In this document: piece after piece, positions 21,284 through 30,562 of the stretch
How the letters are laid out: every line of letters begins with the position of its first letter
Position numbering within the stretch: the first letter of the stretch is position 1
Source: an uncultured Microcaldota archaeon
GTDB taxonomy: Archaea; Micrarchaeota; Micrarchaeia; Burarchaeales; Fermentimicrarchaeaceae
Direction: 5' to 3'
Length of the DNA stretch: 64,000 bases
Assembly (NCBI GenBank): GCA_903884505.1
Contig: CAISET010000002.1
Span: 186,001-250,000, forward strand
Program-made: the position numbers and the translations under genes
Notes under the pieces: model-generated
Databases searched by the model: none
What the model was told of the DNA's origin: nothing
The model's input: only the letters and a program-made list of their open reading frames with translations

Positions 21284-22369
21284 TTAAATTGGCGTTCCGG
21301 GCGGCGTAAAATGCACGTCGAAGAGCTGCTCAAGGAAGTAGGGGGTATATTCCGTAGAAAGGTGCGCGCATGGCACGACCTTGAAATTGAAGCTCTTTAT
21401 GTTGTCCCCGAAAATCTCAAGGAGCTTCAGGTGCGATGTTTCGGCCTTCTCAAGGGAATGGAAGTAGCAGTTCATTAGCGCGAACGTCTTCGTGTAGTAA
21501 AGCTTGAAGACCTGTGGCGTAGTGTCGACCAGCGTCTCCATGAGCTTTGCGCCCTGCTCACCGAGCATGGGCTGGGTCAGGTCTATCCACGCAAACGTGG
21601 CAACCTCCAGCCCAGGGAGCTTGGTCGGGTCTATCGTCCGCACGTAGTTTATCACGCCCTTCTTCTGCAGCTGCCCGAATACCTCAGAAAGAGAGCTCTG
21701 CTTTATCCCGACTTTCACCGCAATCTCGCTCTTCCTAAGGCTCGGGAACCGCCGCATCGCGACAAGGACCTTCTTTTCAGTTGAATTCAGGGAAGGGATG
21801 TTTCCAGGAGATTCGGGAAGCTCGCACTCGCCGCCAGTGCTGGCAGGCGCCATCTCGGCCTTGCTGACCTGGCGCATGAGCGCGTGCTCGACGAGCCTTC
21901 CCATGAACGTGCAGGTTACAAGGTGTGACATCGGCAGCGTCTTCCACGTGTAGGCTGAGATGTCTGCGGCAAAATCCTGCAGCTGCTCGGCGAGGTGCAG
22001 CCGCGAGTTCTCCGCATCTTCGAAAGATGAGAAGTAGTCCACGTTCAGGCTCCAGTCCGAAGTGCCGAACGTGTACGCAACAGGCATGCCGCTCCTTATC
22101 CTCGACATCTTCTCCCTGAGCGCGGCTCTTACGGCACGGTTGTATTCAAGCCAGATGAAGGCAGCGACCTGGGCCTGCCCTACCCTCTGCATGTTAACCC
22201 GTATCTGCTCGAGCAGCACACCCTTCTCGATGAGCCTCCGCTTCACGACCGCGAAGTTGCTCGGCGCCATCCCGAGCCTCTCAGCTATGCTCTTGTCGCT
22301 CTCTCTCTGTCGTCTCACCAACTCTAGGAGAACGTTCGACTCAGTGCCAGTGAGCTTCTCTCCTCCCAT
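21284..22369 (-). CDS. Double-HTH regulator, Lrp-like, second of a tandem pair
   Basis: The 361-residue protein appears built from two similar halves, each a winged HTH followed by an alpha/beta domain. Half 1: LTGTESNVLLELVRRQRESD with recognition helix region RLGMAPSNFAVVKRRL. Half 2: LNSTEKKVLVAMRRFPSLRK with KVGIKQSSLSEVFGQLQKKGV. The domains after each HTH, with VAAFIWLEYN and VATFAWIDLT strands, recall the effector-binding RAM fold of Lrp/AsnC regulators, but this is a by-eye similarity. The neighbour at 22385-23449 is a close paralogue; both end with PCAHLSTEY..YFLEQLF. Only 15 bp separate them, so they are probably co-transcribed. Target genes are unknown. Confidence 0.75.
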   Translation of the reverse strand: MGGEKLTGTESNVLLELVRRQRESDKSIAERLGMAPSNFAVVKRRLIEKGVLLEQIRVNMQRVGQAQVAAFIWLEYNRAVRAALREKMSRIRSGMPVAYTFGTSDWSLNVDYFSSFEDAENSRLHLAEQLQDFAADISAYTWKTLPMSHLVTCTFMGRLVEHALMRQVSKAEMAPASTGGECELPESPGNIPSLNSTEKKVLVAMRRFPSLRKSEIAVKVGIKQSSLSEVFGQLQKKGVINYVRTIDPTKLPGLEVATFAWIDLTQPMLGEQGAKLMETLVDTTPQVFKLYYTKTFALMNCYFHSLEKAETSHLKLLEIFGDNIKSFNFKVVPCAHLSTEYTPYFLEQLFDVHFTPPGTPI

Positions 22370-22384
22370 CGAACCACACCGACC

Positions 22385-23449
22385 TCAGCCCTTCTGCTCG
22401 AAAAGCTGCTCAAGGAAATAAGAATGGTATTCCGTAGAAAGGTGCGCGCACGGGACTATCTTGAAGTTTAGGGCCTTCACATTGTCGCCGAGGATTCCAA
22501 GCAGGGCGAGGTGCGCGCTCTCGGCCTTGTCGAGCGAGCTGAAGAGGCTCTCGACGAGCATGAACGTCCGCGTATAGTATATGCGGTAAAGCTGGGGTAT
22601 CTTCATGGCAAGCTGCCCGACGCTTTCCTCCATATCCTCTACGATGGGCCGCTTCATCTCGACCCAGGTGATGGTTGCTATCTCGCTGCCGGGCAGCATC
22701 TTCGGGTCTATGGTCCTTACGTGGCTTATCACTCCCTTCCTCTGGAGCGTCTTGAATATCTCGGAAAGCGTGCTCTGCTGTATGCCGACCTTCGCCGCAA
22801 TCTCGCTCTTCTTCAGCTGCGGGTGCTTCCTCAGCGCTATTAGCACGCGCTTCTCCGTATCGTTGAGCCTTGCGACCTGCTCCGGCGCGACAGGATACTG
22901 GCAGTTCGCGAACAGGACCTTATGGTCGAAGTGCTTCTCGTGCCCGACCGCCTGCGCCACGAACCTGCCCATGAAGTCGCACCTTGCGAGGTGCGCGATG
23001 GGAACGGTCTTCCAGACGTGGCTGCTGATGAGGGGCCTGAACACTTCTGAAGTGAAGAGCTTCTCAGCCATCCTCAGCCTCGCGCTCTCGGACGCCTCGA
23101 ACGAGCTATAGTAAGAGACATTCAGGCTCCAGTCGAGCGAGCCGTGCGTGTAGGCGTGCGGATAGGTTTCCCTTATCTTCGTCAGGTTGGCGGCAAAGGC
23201 TTTCCTTATGGGCTTGTTATACTCAATCCAGACGAAGGCGGCCACCTTTATGTCCGGGATGCGGTGGGGGTTCATCCTTATGTGCTCGAGCAGGACCCCC
23301 TTGTCCTGAAGCCTCCGCTTCACGACCGCGAAGTTGCTCGGCGCCATCCCCAGCCTCGTCGCTATGGCCTTGTCGCTGTCCTTCTGGCTGCTTACGAGCT
23401 CAAGCAGCGCCTTTGCCTCAGTTGCAGTTAGGGCCTTTCCTTCAGGCAT
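22385..23449 (-). CDS. Double-HTH regulator, Lrp-like, first of a tandem pair
   Basis: The 354-residue paralogue of the downstream gene shares the near-identical recognition stretch RLGMAPSNFAVVKRRL in HTH 1 and KVGIQQSTLSEIFKTLQRKGV in HTH 2. Each HTH is followed by an alpha/beta segment (VAAFVWIEYNKPIRKAF; IATITWVEMKRPIVEDM). Length and domain order equal those of its partner, so the pair arose by gene duplication after an older internal duplication. An AT-rich element (ATTAAAAAATTA) lies 14-25 bases upstream and TTTAAA lies ~51 bases upstream. The gene is divergent from the unknown protein at 23571, a likely regulatory target by position only. Confidence 0.75.
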   Translation of the reverse strand: MPEGKALTATEAKALLELVSSQKDSDKAIATRLGMAPSNFAVVKRRLQDKGVLLEHIRMNPHRIPDIKVAAFVWIEYNKPIRKAFAANLTKIRETYPHAYTHGSLDWSLNVSYYSSFEASESARLRMAEKLFTSEVFRPLISSHVWKTVPIAHLARCDFMGRFVAQAVGHEKHFDHKVLFANCQYPVAPEQVARLNDTEKRVLIALRKHPQLKKSEIAAKVGIQQSTLSEIFKTLQRKGVISHVRTIDPKMLPGSEIATITWVEMKRPIVEDMEESVGQLAMKIPQLYRIYYTRTFMLVESLFSSLDKAESAHLALLGILGDNVKALNFKIVPCAHLSTEYHSYFLEQLFEQKG

Positions 23450-23541: not shown

Positions 23542-23548
23542 TTTTATA
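23542..23548 (+). promoter_or_regulatory. TATA element TTTTATA for the gene at 23571
   Basis: Centre is 26 bases before the ATG at 23571, implying a leaderless mRNA and ruling against the track ATG at 23508, which lies upstream of this box. A second box, TTTAAA at 23498-23503, could serve the divergent regulator gene. Confidence 0.6.
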
Positions 23549-23570: not shown

Positions 23571-25247
23571 ATGGCAGCCAGAGCGGAGAAGGTAGCGGAG
23601 CGTACCGCCCCACTGGTGGTCCTCACGCCGCCGAAGGTTGAAAAGGACTATATCGTCCCACTAGGCAAATTTGACTTCGAAGAGGCCTTCTCCCGTGCCC
23701 AGACGAAAGAGGGATACTGGTTCAGGGCGCAGTCCGACGACATGTTCGTGCTTTTTGTCGGAATGGACAGGAAAGGCGGGACAGATGTGCAGGAGAGAGT
23801 ATCAGCCTCGCTCTACATGGTCACCCATGATTTCAAGCTGAGGCTCGTCGGCTTCCTTGATGTGCAGCACATTTCCGGGCAGGAAGGGCTCAAGGCAGCC
23901 TGCTTCGAGCCGGCGCTCGCCACAGCCAGCGGAAATCCTTACATCGAGGCCGCGGACCCCGTAAGGGAGACAAAGGTAAGCACCAAGGTCGGATACTGGA
24001 TTGATGAGGAGCTTTCAAAGACCCGGGGTCCTGGCAAATACGGCGGAATGGGGAGGTTCCTTCTGACCGTGCATGGCCTCCACGCGCAGAGAAGCGGCAT
24101 TAGGAAATTCGAGATGAAGACCCCGACAATCGAGGAATTCGAGACGCTTCGTGACTTCTACTGCAGCAAGGGGGCCAAGGCGCTAACAGTCACCGCGCCG
24201 GAGAAGAAGGGCGAGCCCTACAGCCTCGGCGTCGATTTGGATGAAGTAAAATTCAGCGGGGCGCCCGCGATAGGGAAGAACGGCTTCACATTCGGCCCAA
24301 CCGAACTTCCCCCGTCCATCGAGGCCTTTAAGGTCCAGGGCGGGGGGACGGATTCCGAGAAGATAGTCATCCCGTTCCGTGACTTCCGCGTGGATAACGT
24401 GACCATCTCCCTCGCGAAATCAAAGGAAGGCCTCCGCATCAGGATGAGCAGCGGGGACGTCTTCGCCGTGTTCATCCGCGAGAACGAGCTGGACCTGGGC
24501 CTTGAGTCGAACAAGCCCCTTAAGTCGGAGTACAGCCGCTTCAGGGAGGTGACAGTGAACATCTTCCACGAGCAGCACGGCGAGCTCGTGCCTGCCGCGT
24601 TCTGCGACCGCACGCTCTTCAATATCGACGAGGAGCTGTTCACCGTGCCAAGCGCCGCCGAGATGCTGGAGGAGTTCAAGGAAAGGCAGATAGAGCTGAT
24701 AGGCGAGAAGAAGTCAAGCGAGTCATGGGAGCTAAAGGATGCGAACGGGAAGGAATACTATGGCTTAATCAGCAGCAGGAACGGCACTATCACAATATTC
24801 CGCAAGGGCGTGACGCATGCGGAGACCAGCGGCCCGCCGCTGGTCGGGAGTGACCTGGAAAGCCCAGCCATCAGGGACATGGACGCGCAGCTCAGGGAAA
24901 AGATGCCCGTGGAGCCGGGCATCGGTCGCCTCGGCTACGGGGCAGCCGCCAACTATTCGAGCCACTCGAAAGGGAGGTTCAGCGGGGCAAGGCGCTTCGC
25001 GCTGGTGCTCCAGGACCTGGTGTCAAAGCATCTGGGCGTTGAAACAGTGGAGGTCTACGTACCTGAGAGGAAGGGCGAGGAGGGCTCGGCCCTGCGCTGG
25101 GCCCAGGGAGTTTACGGGGACGCAGTCACATCCCATCCGAGCGGGCAGAGGAAGGGGTTCTACGGGGCGAACCTTCTTGCGGCAAACCTGGTCCTGCGCG
25201 AGATAACGCGCACCGGCAAGCAGAAAACCCTGAAGGAGCTGCAGTAG
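23571..25247 (+). CDS. Large uncharacterised protein
   Basis: About 558 residues from the ATG chosen by TATA spacing. No signal peptide or membrane segment is visible, so it is probably cytoplasmic. Two regions look like diverged copies of a beta-rich unit: one near DYIVPLGKFDFEEAFSRAQ to RERVSASLYMVTHDFKLRLV-like strands, the other near KIVIPFRDFRVDNVTISLAK to YSRFREVTVNIFHEQHGELV. A third, helical part follows (IRDMDAQLREKMPVEPG to the end). I do not recognise the family. It is followed after 49 bp by another giant unknown gene whose TATA element and start spacing are the same, suggesting a shared expression programme. Function unassigned. Confidence 0.75.
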   Translation: MAARAEKVAERTAPLVVLTPPKVEKDYIVPLGKFDFEEAFSRAQTKEGYWFRAQSDDMFVLFVGMDRKGGTDVQERVSASLYMVTHDFKLRLVGFLDVQHISGQEGLKAACFEPALATASGNPYIEAADPVRETKVSTKVGYWIDEELSKTRGPGKYGGMGRFLLTVHGLHAQRSGIRKFEMKTPTIEEFETLRDFYCSKGAKALTVTAPEKKGEPYSLGVDLDEVKFSGAPAIGKNGFTFGPTELPPSIEAFKVQGGGTDSEKIVIPFRDFRVDNVTISLAKSKEGLRIRMSSGDVFAVFIRENELDLGLESNKPLKSEYSRFREVTVNIFHEQHGELVPAAFCDRTLFNIDEELFTVPSAAEMLEEFKERQIELIGEKKSSESWELKDANGKEYYGLISSRNGTITIFRKGVTHAETSGPPLVGSDLESPAIRDMDAQLREKMPVEPGIGRLGYGAAANYSSHSKGRFSGARRFALVLQDLVSKHLGVETVEVYVPERKGEEGSALRWAQGVYGDAVTSHPSGQRKGFYGANLLAANLVLREITRTGKQKTLKELQ

Positions 25248-25267
25248 GCTGCCGACGGGCCGCACGC

Positions 25268-25274
25268 TTTTATA
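25268..25274 (+). promoter_or_regulatory. TATA element TTTTATA-type for the gene at 25297
   Basis: TTTTATA-like element (cgctTTTATAg) centred 26 bases before GTG 25297, copying the arrangement at 23542. It lies only ~10 bases before the track ATG at 25282, too close for that start. Confidence 0.6.
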
Positions 25275-25296
25275 GTGAAGAATGCAAAATTTACCT

Positions 25297-27861
25297 GTGG
25301 CAGAAACGAAGCACCTGAAAGGCCCAGCTGTCAGCAGGGACGAGGTAGGGCAGGCGCTGAGTCTGCTCCAGAGCCCGAAAACGCGCCCCCTCGCAGTGGA
25401 GAGGCTCAAGTCCCTGACGAAGGACACGGAACAGTTCATAGAGGCGCTCTGGCAGCACTCGAAGCAGCGCACGAGGGTTTTTTCACAGAGCCTGGATTTC
25501 ATAAAGCGGAAGATGGCGACAGCACCACCAAACACCTCGATATCAGAGACCGCCTCGCTCATCCTCGAGCGGCTGGATGGGGTTGAGCAGTCCATCAGTT
25601 CCAGAATACGGGCGGAGAAGGCATTCCTGGCCCTGAGCAGCGGAAGGGAGTGCGCGAATCCAGCGGTGCTGCGCGCCAAGGTGCGCGAAGCAGTCGACTC
25701 GGGGAAGCCGCTCGAGATAGTGGCCTTATGGGAGCCTGCCGAGGCTGCTGCTGAGCAGCAGGGCAAGAGGGACCCTCTCATCCTTTTCATGCAGATGCTG
25801 GCCAGGGCAGGCTGCAAGTTCAACGCCCGTTTCATACTCAACGACATGGGCGCCGCATCGCCTGAGGCCAGCCAAAAGTCCTACGAGCGCCTGCGGCAGT
25901 TCATCGAAAGCAAGCACAACGAATCATTCTCACTCGAGAAGGCCAGCGAGATGACACAAGACATGCTCCTCTACGACGCAGCCCTCCGGGGCTACACGGG
26001 ATTAACCTCATTCCTTCAGGGCGCGGGCGCGCTCAAGCTGCAGGGCGAAGAGCCAGTGCTTGTAACCAACATATCGCTGAGGGCAGATGCTGTGCCCATC
26101 GCGGTCCCGGCACTGTTCCTGCAGAGCAGGGCAGCGTCCATCTCAGAAACAAGGCGCAAGATAGCCGGCTGCGCAAGGCTGATACAGAATCCGCGTTCGC
26201 GCAAGAATGGCATAAACGCGATACTTAACCTCGCGCTTTCGGACCAGGGGCATTTCCAGGAGGCGTGGGCATCCACCAGGGACAGCGCTGTGAGGCGCAA
26301 CAGGCTGGAATTGGTCAGAGGTGCGGCAAGAAGCTTCTTGGACGGCTCGCGGGCGCGCGCCACAGCCGACAAGCTCATTGAAGTGCTCACAGCCGCAGAA
26401 AAGGCCGCTGCGGAAGTGGATGCGCGCAGGATATGCGCAGCCCTCGCGAAGAGGAACTTCCGCAGCGCCTGGCCAGCGAACCTTGAGGAGATGCGGGCGA
26501 GGGTCCGCGCTGCAGTCGAGGCAGGCAACCCGATTACGCTCGCCATCCGCTGGGGAGGGTACAAGGAAACCCGAGGGGGAAGGGCGGATGCATTCGACAT
26601 GAAGGCGCTCCGGCGCATCCAGGAATGGGCGGGCTCCATCGGATATCCAGTCAGGCTCCTAATAGTATTCTGCGACATGCATGCAACCATCCTGAACGGG
26701 AAGTCAGTGAAGGCAACGCAGCTCTACCGTGCGGACCTGGAGGACGTGCTGCGCACGTCCATCGTGCGCACAGACAGGCCAGCGTTTGAGATCACTAACC
26801 TATCAGCACTCTACAAATCATGGCGCTCAAATCCAGCAAACGCACAAACTGTCCAGCAGGTGCAGGAAAAAGCCAAGGAGTTCGCGGCCGGAACTGACCT
26901 TAAGCCCCTGCGCATCATGGCTAAAAAGCATTCGGACCTTGTGCGGAGCAAAAAGAAGACCATCGATGAGGTCGTGGCAAGGTATTCTGAAATGCAGTAT
27001 ACTGATGATGTGGTGTTTGATGCAATGCTTCCAGGCTCGATCTCCGTCATTCTTGGCGGCAGCCTTGCGAGGAAGACATACGCCTCCAAGCGCCCCGCCG
27101 TCTTTATTGCATCGAGCGCAAGGGGCTTTGCAGATGTGCCATGGTACCTCGACGCTAACGCAGCAGTAGCAGTTGAAGGGAAGCCAATCTACGACAGGAA
27201 TGTGCTGGACGCGGAGAAGCGTCTCCGAGCAGTCTACCTGGACTATGCAGCCGCCCAGCCAGGCGCTTCCAGAATCATGACTGATGTGCGCACGCAGGAG
27301 GCAATCACGATGCTGGAGCAGGCAGGGATGCCAATGGCAGCATCGTGGAGCGTCGCATTCCTCTACGTACTTGGCGACCTGGCCTACGTGAAAGCAGTGC
27401 AAGACGTCTTCAAGGTGCTTGAAGCAGAGCGTCCGGAAGACCTTGCAACTGCAATGCAGCTGGCGGACGCAGCCATGGTCCGGATTTTCGAGGCCGCGGT
27501 TGATGGGGCCCCGCTTTTCATAACTGCCGATGTGCTTTCAGCTGCGCTGGAAGCGCCTCTCAAGCCAGGCGACAACAAGAGCATAGCAAGCCTGCTGGAT
27601 TCCGAAGTGGTGAATCCGCTCAGGCGCGCCGTGCGCGCCAGGCTTGCCCAAAAGCTCCAGGATAGCGTTCCGCTGCCGGACTATGAAGCGATGGAAGTGG
27701 AGATGCTAACAGAGGCAACCTACCTGTCGTTTGAAAGGTGCCTTAGCACGGCCGCGCAGCGCAAGGTTCTTGCGGAACTCCTTATAATGTACGGCAAGGA
27801 TTTCCTCCCTACGTTCTCGGCCCTGTATGGCACCGAGCGAAAACCTGAAGTGGCACAATGA
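25297..27861 (+). CDS. Giant uncharacterised helical protein with internal duplication
   Basis: About 854 residues from GTG 25297 (chosen by the TATA box 26 bases upstream). No signal peptide or membrane helix is visible. Two related segments occur: RAKVREAVDSGKPLEIVALWEP...ARFILNDMGA and, later, RARVRAAVEAGNPITLAIRWGG...LLIVFCDMHATILNG. The second includes a striking motif block, WGGYKETRGGRADAFDMKAL plus FCDMHA, with acidic and His residues that look catalytic. A further region, GSLARKTYASKRPAVFIASS with DVPWYLDANAAVAVEGKPIY, is also distinctive. I do not recognise the family. The first segment lacks most of the polar motif residues and may be a degenerate copy. The HEAT-repeat gene overlaps its stop, indicating an operon. 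Confidence 0.75.
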   Translation: MAETKHLKGPAVSRDEVGQALSLLQSPKTRPLAVERLKSLTKDTEQFIEALWQHSKQRTRVFSQSLDFIKRKMATAPPNTSISETASLILERLDGVEQSISSRIRAEKAFLALSSGRECANPAVLRAKVREAVDSGKPLEIVALWEPAEAAAEQQGKRDPLILFMQMLARAGCKFNARFILNDMGAASPEASQKSYERLRQFIESKHNESFSLEKASEMTQDMLLYDAALRGYTGLTSFLQGAGALKLQGEEPVLVTNISLRADAVPIAVPALFLQSRAASISETRRKIAGCARLIQNPRSRKNGINAILNLALSDQGHFQEAWASTRDSAVRRNRLELVRGAARSFLDGSRARATADKLIEVLTAAEKAAAEVDARRICAALAKRNFRSAWPANLEEMRARVRAAVEAGNPITLAIRWGGYKETRGGRADAFDMKALRRIQEWAGSIGYPVRLLIVFCDMHATILNGKSVKATQLYRADLEDVLRTSIVRTDRPAFEITNLSALYKSWRSNPANAQTVQQVQEKAKEFAAGTDLKPLRIMAKKHSDLVRSKKKTIDEVVARYSEMQYTDDVVFDAMLPGSISVILGGSLARKTYASKRPAVFIASSARGFADVPWYLDANAAVAVEGKPIYDRNVLDAEKRLRAVYLDYAAAQPGASRIMTDVRTQEAITMLEQAGMPMAASWSVAFLYVLGDLAYVKAVQDVFKVLEAERPEDLATAMQLADAAMVRIFEAAVDGAPLFITADVLSAALEAPLKPGDNKSIASLLDSEVVNPLRRAVRARLAQKLQDSVPLPDYEAMEVEMLTEATYLSFERCLSTAAQRKVLAELLIMYGKDFLPTFSALYGTERKPEVAQ

Positions 27862-28328
27862 TGGAATTGGAAGAGGCATTGAAGTTCCTGCGGAGCAAAA
27901 ATTCCGGCGAGAGGATAGAGGCCATCCTGGAGCTCGGGAGGATAAGCAATGCAGGCGCAGTGCCCGCTCTCCTAAAGGCGGTTTCAGATGACGAGACCGG
28001 CGCCCTTGCCTGCTGGGCGCTGGGAAAAATAGGTGACAAAGCAGCTGTCCCGAAGCTCCTCGAATGCCTCGCATCGAGCGACCCTCAAATCAGGCACGAG
28101 GCAGCGCTCGCGCTCGGGCGGATTGGGGACAGCCGCGCGCTGAAGCCGCTGATGAAGCTGATGAAGACCGACGACGTAGCAAAGGTGCGCGAGGAGTGCG
28201 CGGAAGCGCTCGCGTATTTTGATTCACCCGAATCTCTCCACGCCCTCAAATCTGCCGCGGCCGAGGATAAGAGCAAGGCGGTGCGCGAGCAGGCAACAAA
28301 ATCAGTACTCATTCTTCTGTCGAAGTAA
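27858..28328 (+). CDS. HEAT-repeat (PBS-lyase-like) protein
   Basis: The 156-residue protein is almost wholly four to five HEAT-like repeats: SGERIEAILELGRISNAGAVPALLKAV, ETGALACWALGKIGDKAAVPKLLECL, PQIRHEAALALGRIGDSRALKPLMKLM and AKVREECAEALAYFDSPESLHALKSA. Such solenoids bind proteins or phycobilins/metal cofactors; in archaea they are usually protein-interaction scaffolds. ATG 27858 overlaps the upstream TGA by 4 bases (ATGA), so translation is coupled to the giant unknown protein. A role as its partner is inferred from coupling. Confidence 0.85.
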   Translation: MMELEEALKFLRSKNSGERIEAILELGRISNAGAVPALLKAVSDDETGALACWALGKIGDKAAVPKLLECLASSDPQIRHEAALALGRIGDSRALKPLMKLMKTDDVAKVREECAEALAYFDSPESLHALKSAAAEDKSKAVREQATKSVLILLSK

Positions 28329-29768: not shown

Positions 29769-30155
29769 CTATCCAGAAAGCTTGGCAGAAAGGGCGACAA
29801 CATTCTCTCCCTTCTTATTCTTCTTCGTCACCCCGATGCGCTCGAGCAGCGCAACAAGCTTATCAACGGTCCCCGTGCTGTCGCTGCCTTCCGCAGCATA
29901 CGCGTGAATCGCCCTCACAGCTTCATCAACGCCATTCTTGTTCTCCTTGTATTTCTTCATCCACGCACCCAGGTAAATCCGGTCAGCCTCGCTTTCGCTG
30001 CCGGTTTCCTTCTGGACGTCCTCATAGGCAAAGTAGAATGCCTTCGCAGAGCCGACCGGGTTTGGCCCACAGCGCAAATCCTCCATGTGGCGCCCCAGCT
30101 TCTGCACCACGACCCTGGGCAGCTCCTTCTCGTTATTCACCCTGATCCTGCGCAT
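29769..30155 (-). CDS. Orphan small protein, paralogue of the adjacent upstream gene
   Basis: The 128-residue, helix-rich soluble protein shares a clear pattern with its neighbour at 30137-30562: an aromatic FYFAYEDVQKETG helix, then WMKKYKENKNGVDEAVRAIHAYAAEGS, then VDKLVALLERIGV. It starts 19 bp inside the upstream gene, so the two are translationally coupled. No enzyme motif, signal peptide or membrane helix is visible. The tail (KKNKKGENVVALSAKLSG) is basic. Function unknown; an interaction or regulatory module is the most that can be inferred. Confidence 0.65.
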   Translation of the reverse strand: MRRIRVNNEKELPRVVVQKLGRHMEDLRCGPNPVGSAKAFYFAYEDVQKETGSESEADRIYLGAWMKKYKENKNGVDEAVRAIHAYAAEGSDSTGTVDKLVALLERIGVTKKNKKGENVVALSAKLSG

Positions 30156-30562
30156 AATGCCGCCTCGCCGCTTTTGTCGAGCATCTTGCCGATTTCCTCC
30201 TTGATGCCGCCGCCTTCCAGCGCCTTGAGCACCCCCGTGCGCTCAAGCACATCCAGCACCTTCTCCGCCATCGGGCTGTAGAACGTCCCCTCGTTGGCGA
30301 TGGTGCGCATTTTGGCGACTGCGCGCTCAACCCCCGTCCTATCCTCCCCGCCCTTCTCCAGGCGTTTCATAAAGCTCTTCTTGAAGAGCTCATCCGCCTT
30401 CTTCGTGCCGAATTTCTTGCAGAGGTCATCGTAGATGAAGTAGAGGTTCCTCGTGGGCATGGACGCGCCTCCGATATGCTGCATCCCGCTTAGGCAGGTT
30501 CCGACCGTCTTGCCGACGGTCCAGAGCAGTTCGTCCCTCTTCTTGCCGGCAAACCTGTTCAT
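30137..30562 (-). CDS. Orphan small protein, first gene of a three-gene operon
   Basis: The 141-residue soluble protein opens the operon. Shared core with the next gene: YFIYDDLCKKFG, SFMKRLEKGGEDRTGVERAVAKMRTIANEG and AEKVLDVLERTGVL. The N terminus has two Cys (GTCLSGMQH and DDLCKK), and the C terminus is GEAALCAGSG. A TATATA box at 30585-30590 is ~26 bases before the ATG, giving a leaderless mRNA. The pairing of two diverged copies in one operon suggests a heteromeric complex; this is inference. Family not recognised. Confidence 0.7.
   Translation of the reverse strand: MNRFAGKKRDELLWTVGKTVGTCLSGMQHIGGASMPTRNLYFIYDDLCKKFGTKKADELFKKSFMKRLEKGGEDRTGVERAVAKMRTIANEGTFYSPMAEKVLDVLERTGVLKALEGGGIKEEIGKMLDKSGEAALCAGSG

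Follow-up and report, generated by a model that had tools for sequence, protein, structure and literature searches.

A probable divergent DIT1/PvcA-superfamily protein encoded with a duplicated partner in a Micrarchaeota gene cluster

A cluster of three genes in a 64,000-nt stretch of Micrarchaeota DNA (hereafter the window) encodes a protein, P2, whose central domain is, on sequence, profile and fold evidence, almost certainly homologous to the DIT1/PvcA superfamily (PF05141), the superfamily of the isonitrile synthases PvcA and IsnA. With considerably less assurance, we lean toward reading the cluster as an accessory locus for amino-acid metabolism in one Micrarchaeota family, in which P2 supplies a divergent DIT1/PvcA domain for a putative amino-acid modification. 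The host genome comprises 1.5 Mb in 37 contigs, and the features of the locus are as follows.

21284..22369, minus strand: R1, a 361-aa tandem winged-helix (Lrp/AsnC- or TrmB-like) regulator (HTH_24 1.3e-8, TrmB 5.9e-7)
22385..23449, minus strand: R2, a 354-aa paralogue of R1, divergent from P1 (HTH_24 3e-11, TrmB 3.6e-10)
23542..23548, plus strand: candidate TATA box TTTTATA; the P1 start at 23571 is 29 nt further on
23571..25247, plus strand: P1, 558 aa, ATG start; tandem duplication of a lineage-restricted domain
25268..25274, plus strand: candidate TATA box TTTTATA; the P2 GTG start at 25297 is 29 nt further on
25297..27861, plus strand: P2, 854 aa from GTG, with homologues in other genomes
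25654..25731, plus strand: P2 residues 120-145, beginning of a probable degenerate first copy (11/26 identical to residues 394-419)
26479..27159, plus strand: P2 residues 395-621, DIT1/PvcA-like (isonitrile-synthase-superfamily) domain
27858..28328, plus strand: P3, a 156-aa HEAT-repeat protein (HEAT_2 E=4.1e-48)

The original prediction, made from the letters of the window, had described three open reading frames, the third a HEAT-repeat gene overlapping the second, and a shared geometry between TTTTATA and the start codons of the first two. Both descriptions proved accurate: P2 and P3 overlap by the 4 nt ATGA, and the spacing is exactly 29 nt for P1 and P2 alike, an arrangement that would fit leaderless transcription in archaea. 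The 7-mer is itself not rare, and its four occurrences in the window against 1.9 expected do not amount to a significant enrichment. Alternative in-frame ATG codons are present for P1 at 23508 and for P2 at 25282, the latter yielding a protein of 859 aa; to call proteins of 558 and 854 aa giant was an overstatement. The genes of the region are arranged in the order HMG-CoA reductase (minus), DUF4139 protein (plus), R1 (minus), R2 (minus), P1, P2, HEAT and CAAX protease (all plus). Elsewhere in the window, two adjacent small minus-strand ORFs at 29769-30562 (128 and 141 aa) look like diverged paralogues.

The first two proteins had also been said to match no family. Neither has a significant match in Pfam or NCBIfam, and sub-threshold Pfam matches of P2 to DUF2164 and DUF4633 were discarded as noise; the claim gives way for the P2 domain, which profiles and fold identify as a remote DIT1/PvcA homologue. 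A protein search of 60 relatives recovered homologues of P2 residues 395-621 in the host genome itself (a 464-aa frame on contig C30, here L005) and in G003 (GenBank CAIXRF01), a Candidatus Micrarchaeota of the same family as the host and another genus, together with a homologue in G029 that covers residues 371-488. With a four-sequence profile, matches appeared in 14 of 295 Micrarchaeota genomes; a profile of 13 sequences extended the domain family to 25 of 301, more than half of them at E < 1e-20. Family A1 has no stretch conserved enough for a contig scan, and the scan with A2 matched only G003. An archaeal histone gene (L026:6533-6775) is situated directly upstream of the P2 paralogue in the host genome.

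The connection to the DIT1/PvcA superfamily comes through this group, since P2 alone gives no PF05141 score. It first appeared as PF05141 matches of two homologues at E=2e-4 and 1e-3; in all, 8 of the 13 members match the family (best E=2e-4), every score of the P2 group lying below the Pfam gathering threshold, and the only match to any other Pfam family among the 13 is a single one at E=0.096. Profile-profile comparison by hhalign of the P2 family with an isonitrile synthase alignment returned a probability of 96.5% (E=9e-10), against 0.3-0.5% for control comparisons of the P1 profile with PvcA and with the P2 family. The isonitrile synthase alignment consisted of a Micrarchaeota protein from genome G041 and six plasmid-borne homologues; three of these homologues carry an annotation as isonitrile or isocyanide synthase, and the remaining three lack a gene table. 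In reciprocal searches, the profile of each set detected members of the other at E values down to 3e-7 (Z set to 1000). The G041 protein is a genuine member of PF05141 (94 bits), the sole one found in 98 Micrarchaeota genomes; its matches to PDB sequences are at 1.7e-16 for PvcA (3e59) and about 1e-13 for 9dh4/9dhm, and the profile of family A1 matches it as well. Searching PDB sequences directly with A1 and L005 yielded chance matches only, and a plasmid tblastn search with the domain of a relative fused to asparagine synthetase gave no match. A 355-aa protein (L053:8017-9084) is a further candidate for a remote relative: it matched PF05141 below threshold (E=0.005) and by itself has no Pfam match at 0.01.

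Positions that are invariant or nearly so across the 13 members comprise W419-G420, K423, D460-x-H462-A463, N467, Y477, L502-S503, A542, Y563, an R (Q567 in P2), an E (D570 in P2), P600 and P615-W616, so that the polar block picked out by eye in the original prediction turns out to be the family signature. That prediction had further held that P2 carries a duplicated segment of which the second copy alone keeps WGGYK...FCDMHA, and had suggested on this ground that one unit is active and the other degenerate. The distribution of the motif is as described. Residues 120-145 are identical to residues 394-419 at 11 of 26 positions, a score equalled in 1 of 1000 shuffles. There is a further likeness between the N-terminal copy and the degenerate one in the G003 orthologue (8 of 1000 shuffles), but the family profile detects just the first 29 residues of the N-terminal copy, at E=0.04. 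These comparisons lend moderate support to a duplication in which the first copy is likely a degenerate relative of the second. In the G003 protein the order is reversed, the intact copy preceding the degenerate one.

The second half of that claim fares less well, as the supposedly active copy departs from the family at three conserved positions (R to Q567, E to D570 and F to S583), all of which are kept by the C30 paralogue L005; the missing R and E cast doubt on the predicted activity of P2. It is therefore conceivable, though we consider it unlikely, that P2 is a pseudoenzyme, a dead DIT1/PvcA-like amino-acid binder serving as sensor or scaffold while the C30 paralogue performs catalysis. 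A second and still more degenerate copy within the same protein would fit such a role, as would a HEAT partner and regulators suited to binding or signaling, but P2 has kept every one of the WGG-K, D-x-H-A, N, Y, LS, H and PW positions.

Fold comparisons lead to the same superfamily and raise a further alternative. An AlphaFold2 model of P2, built from only two sequences (the structure models overall rest on two to three), has a mean pLDDT of 49, rising to about 60-78 over most of the 395-621 domain. Foldseek with this model of moderate confidence put PIsnA with bound L-tyrosine (9dh4) at rank 1 (prob 1.00, E=2.7e-3); nearly all of the next matches are TyrRS and TrpRS, and a cyclodipeptide synthase comes lower. 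The class Ic synthetases and the cyclodipeptide synthases have a Rossmann amino-acid-binding fold in common with P2 and no Pfam-level sequence similarity to it. Their place after PIsnA in the fold search, together with a sub-threshold match of AlbC for the G041 PvcA protein, could be read as indicating a tRNA-using class-I-aaRS-like enzyme, whether cyclodipeptide-synthase-like or amino-acid-activating, instead of a C1-transfer enzyme. We regard this as improbable, given that PF05141 is the sole family matched by more than one of the 13 members and that no aaRS or CDPS Pfam family is matched by any. Structure and profile searches for a known enzyme family lead from P2 to PIsnA and the isonitrile synthases, at a remote level, and from P1 to no supported match.

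Although the P2 group resembles PvcA/IsnA (3e59, PvcA; 9dh4/9dhm/9dhn, PIsnA and relatives) in fold and motif order, its members are not canonical isonitrile synthases. In the joint alignment the PxFPxKSPNPxK loop is absent from 13 of 13 members, its place being taken by W-G-x-x-K and a deletion, and the RFLxED segment is missing from the whole group. At the position of SDG[RH]VF most members, P2 included, have D-x-H-A, which both groups follow with a Tyr and a terminal PWF/PWH. The domain is also about 80 residues shorter (~220 vs ~300), and the P2 group, unlike PvcA/IsnA, occurs in AsnB fusions and tandem copies and without a PvcB/TauD partner: PvcB/IsnB-type Fe/2OG dioxygenases (TauD, PF02668) were found in none of 15 genomes, the E. 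coli control being positive. Chemistry beyond isonitrile formation is on record in the superfamily, since Saccharomyces Dit1 most likely makes N-formyl-tyrosine and is not replaced by PvcA (PMC7345447). Dit1, likened here by description, shares the superfamily with the P2 group and differs in its eukaryotic spore-wall pathway and P450 partner. A survey of isocyanide synthases reports them from bacteria, fungi and a few other eukaryotes, leaves archaea unmentioned, and lists single, ICS-dioxygenase and ICS-NRPS architectures (Lim et al. 2018, PMC5974471). Domain recombination is common to those enzymes and the P2 group, whereas AsnB-ICS-like, AsnB-NMT1-ICS-like and tandem degenerate/intact arrangements are not among the surveyed architectures. 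No paper dealing with isonitrile synthases of archaea turned up in a literature text search of incomplete coverage.

The surroundings of the relatives point to amino-acid chemistry, by way of fusions to asparagine synthetase and adjacent tandem-Lrp/AsnC regulators. Asparagine synthetase B (glutaminase and synthetase domains) is fused N-terminal to the PvcA-like domain in G013, G230, G257, G085 and G008 (loci L033, L037, L032, L038 and L052), with an NMT1/THI5-like domain between the two in G008 (L052). A tandem-wHTH Lrp/AsnC regulator adjoins the PvcA-like gene in eight loci, seven divergent and one convergent (G207), and a TrmB-like regulator in two; R-type regulators occur in the window and in G003. 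Because Lrp-type regulators occur frequently in these genomes, each of which has 2-32 HTH matches, and several of the loci are phylogenetically related, the association is suggestive and unproven. In G178 the relative is part of a run with cystathionine-type/cysteine synthase PLP enzymes and cysteinyl-tRNA synthetase. Two further observations concern these neighborhoods: tandem proteins of 520-540 aa lie downstream of PvcA-like genes (L032:6590-9768, L034:7852-11084 and L033:91-1671), with starts like DxxWxxTCRVLFGxExG, a repeat-like middle and, in the two scanned, no Pfam match; and by eye, one or two PurP-like ORFs (formate-dependent purine synthesis) are found near AsnB-PvcA-like fusions (L038:2038-4253 and L037:6934-7986).

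The partner protein P1 is itself a tandem duplication, of residues 1-245 and 246-558, which the original prediction had overlooked; a profile of the N half and a paralogue matches the C half at E=1e-10. The paralogue (213 aa, G000:C2:86971-87495) adjoins an SRP54-like gene, G003 has a P1-like gene ahead of its P2-like gene, and a search of 295 genomes turned up no further clear relative. The GxGRFLL...FYCSKGAK look of P1 suggested a tandem GNAT, a reading that profiles did not support, as hhalign against Micrarchaeota GNATs gave 0.2-0.4% and no Pfam match was found. The P1 model has a pLDDT of 48, and its weak Foldseek matches, several to acetyltransferases, all have E > 0.3.

Conservation of the neighborhood was borne out in G003, where HMG-CoA reductase, DUF4139 protein, R, HEAT, R, P1-like and P2-like genes recur with relative orientations as in the window; one R is apparently frameshifted, and the HEAT gene lies between the regulators and does not adjoin the P2-like gene. 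The sister genome G002 has HMG-CoA reductase, DUF4139 protein, one R and CAAX protease, with P1, P2 and HEAT absent between them, which implies gain (or loss) of the P1-P2-HEAT block next to a regulator already in place. The two dedicated-looking regulators of the original prediction are real, R1 and R2 being paralogues 53% identical, and both G002 and G003 have an R1 homologue at this locus; since G002 keeps one R without the cluster, at least that regulator has another role and is not dedicated to it. R2 has weak homology (E=1e-4) to the tandem-Lrp regulators beside other PvcA-like genes. As for the proposal of an undescribed system, the conserved multi-gene locus is indeed undescribed, and P2 has a remote place in the DIT1/PvcA superfamily. 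That the cluster is a module of defense, toxin or mobile-element cargo with no link to amino-acid chemistry, as its patchy distribution and the insert-free syntenic locus of G002 might suggest, is very improbable in view of insert G+C close to that of the flanking DNA and relatives fused to asparagine synthetase, and an anti-phage defense system was rejected, PADLOC giving only generic HTH and HEAT matches.

In the accessory amino-acid-metabolism locus that we favor, residues 395-621 of P2, with their class-Ic-aminoacyl-tRNA-synthetase-like Rossmann fold, would bind a free amino acid where PIsnA and TyrRS bind tyrosine, a substrate suggested by the fold, the AsnB fusions and the Lrp context. 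By the precedent of PvcA and Dit1 chemistry, the domain would modify the alpha-amino group, most simply by transferring a C1 unit to give an isonitrile or an N-formyl product. The type of the divergent tandem-wHTH (Lrp-like) regulators suggests that they may sense the amino acid and switch the operon, and the degenerate P2 copy and the HEAT protein may have a structural role. More tentatively, Micrarchaeota may harbor a separate archaeal clade of the DIT1/PvcA fold, with or without an AsnB module and with amino-acid-sensing regulators, that makes a putative undescribed isonitrile, N-formyl or otherwise N-modified amino acid, the cluster in the window being a lineage-specific elaboration with duplicated partners.

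If true, a divergent branch of the isonitrile synthases would exist in reduced-genome DPANN archaea, built into AsnB fusions and set beside amino-acid-type regulators. Such a branch would broaden the chemistry and evolutionary span of the fold common to isonitrile synthases, cyclodipeptide synthases and Tyr/Trp-tRNA synthetases, and it would give a testable function to proteins now without family annotation. In the literature found, isonitrile synthases are rare natural-product enzymes of bacteria and fungi; tiny-genome archaea may possess amino-acid-modifying chemistry as yet undescribed.
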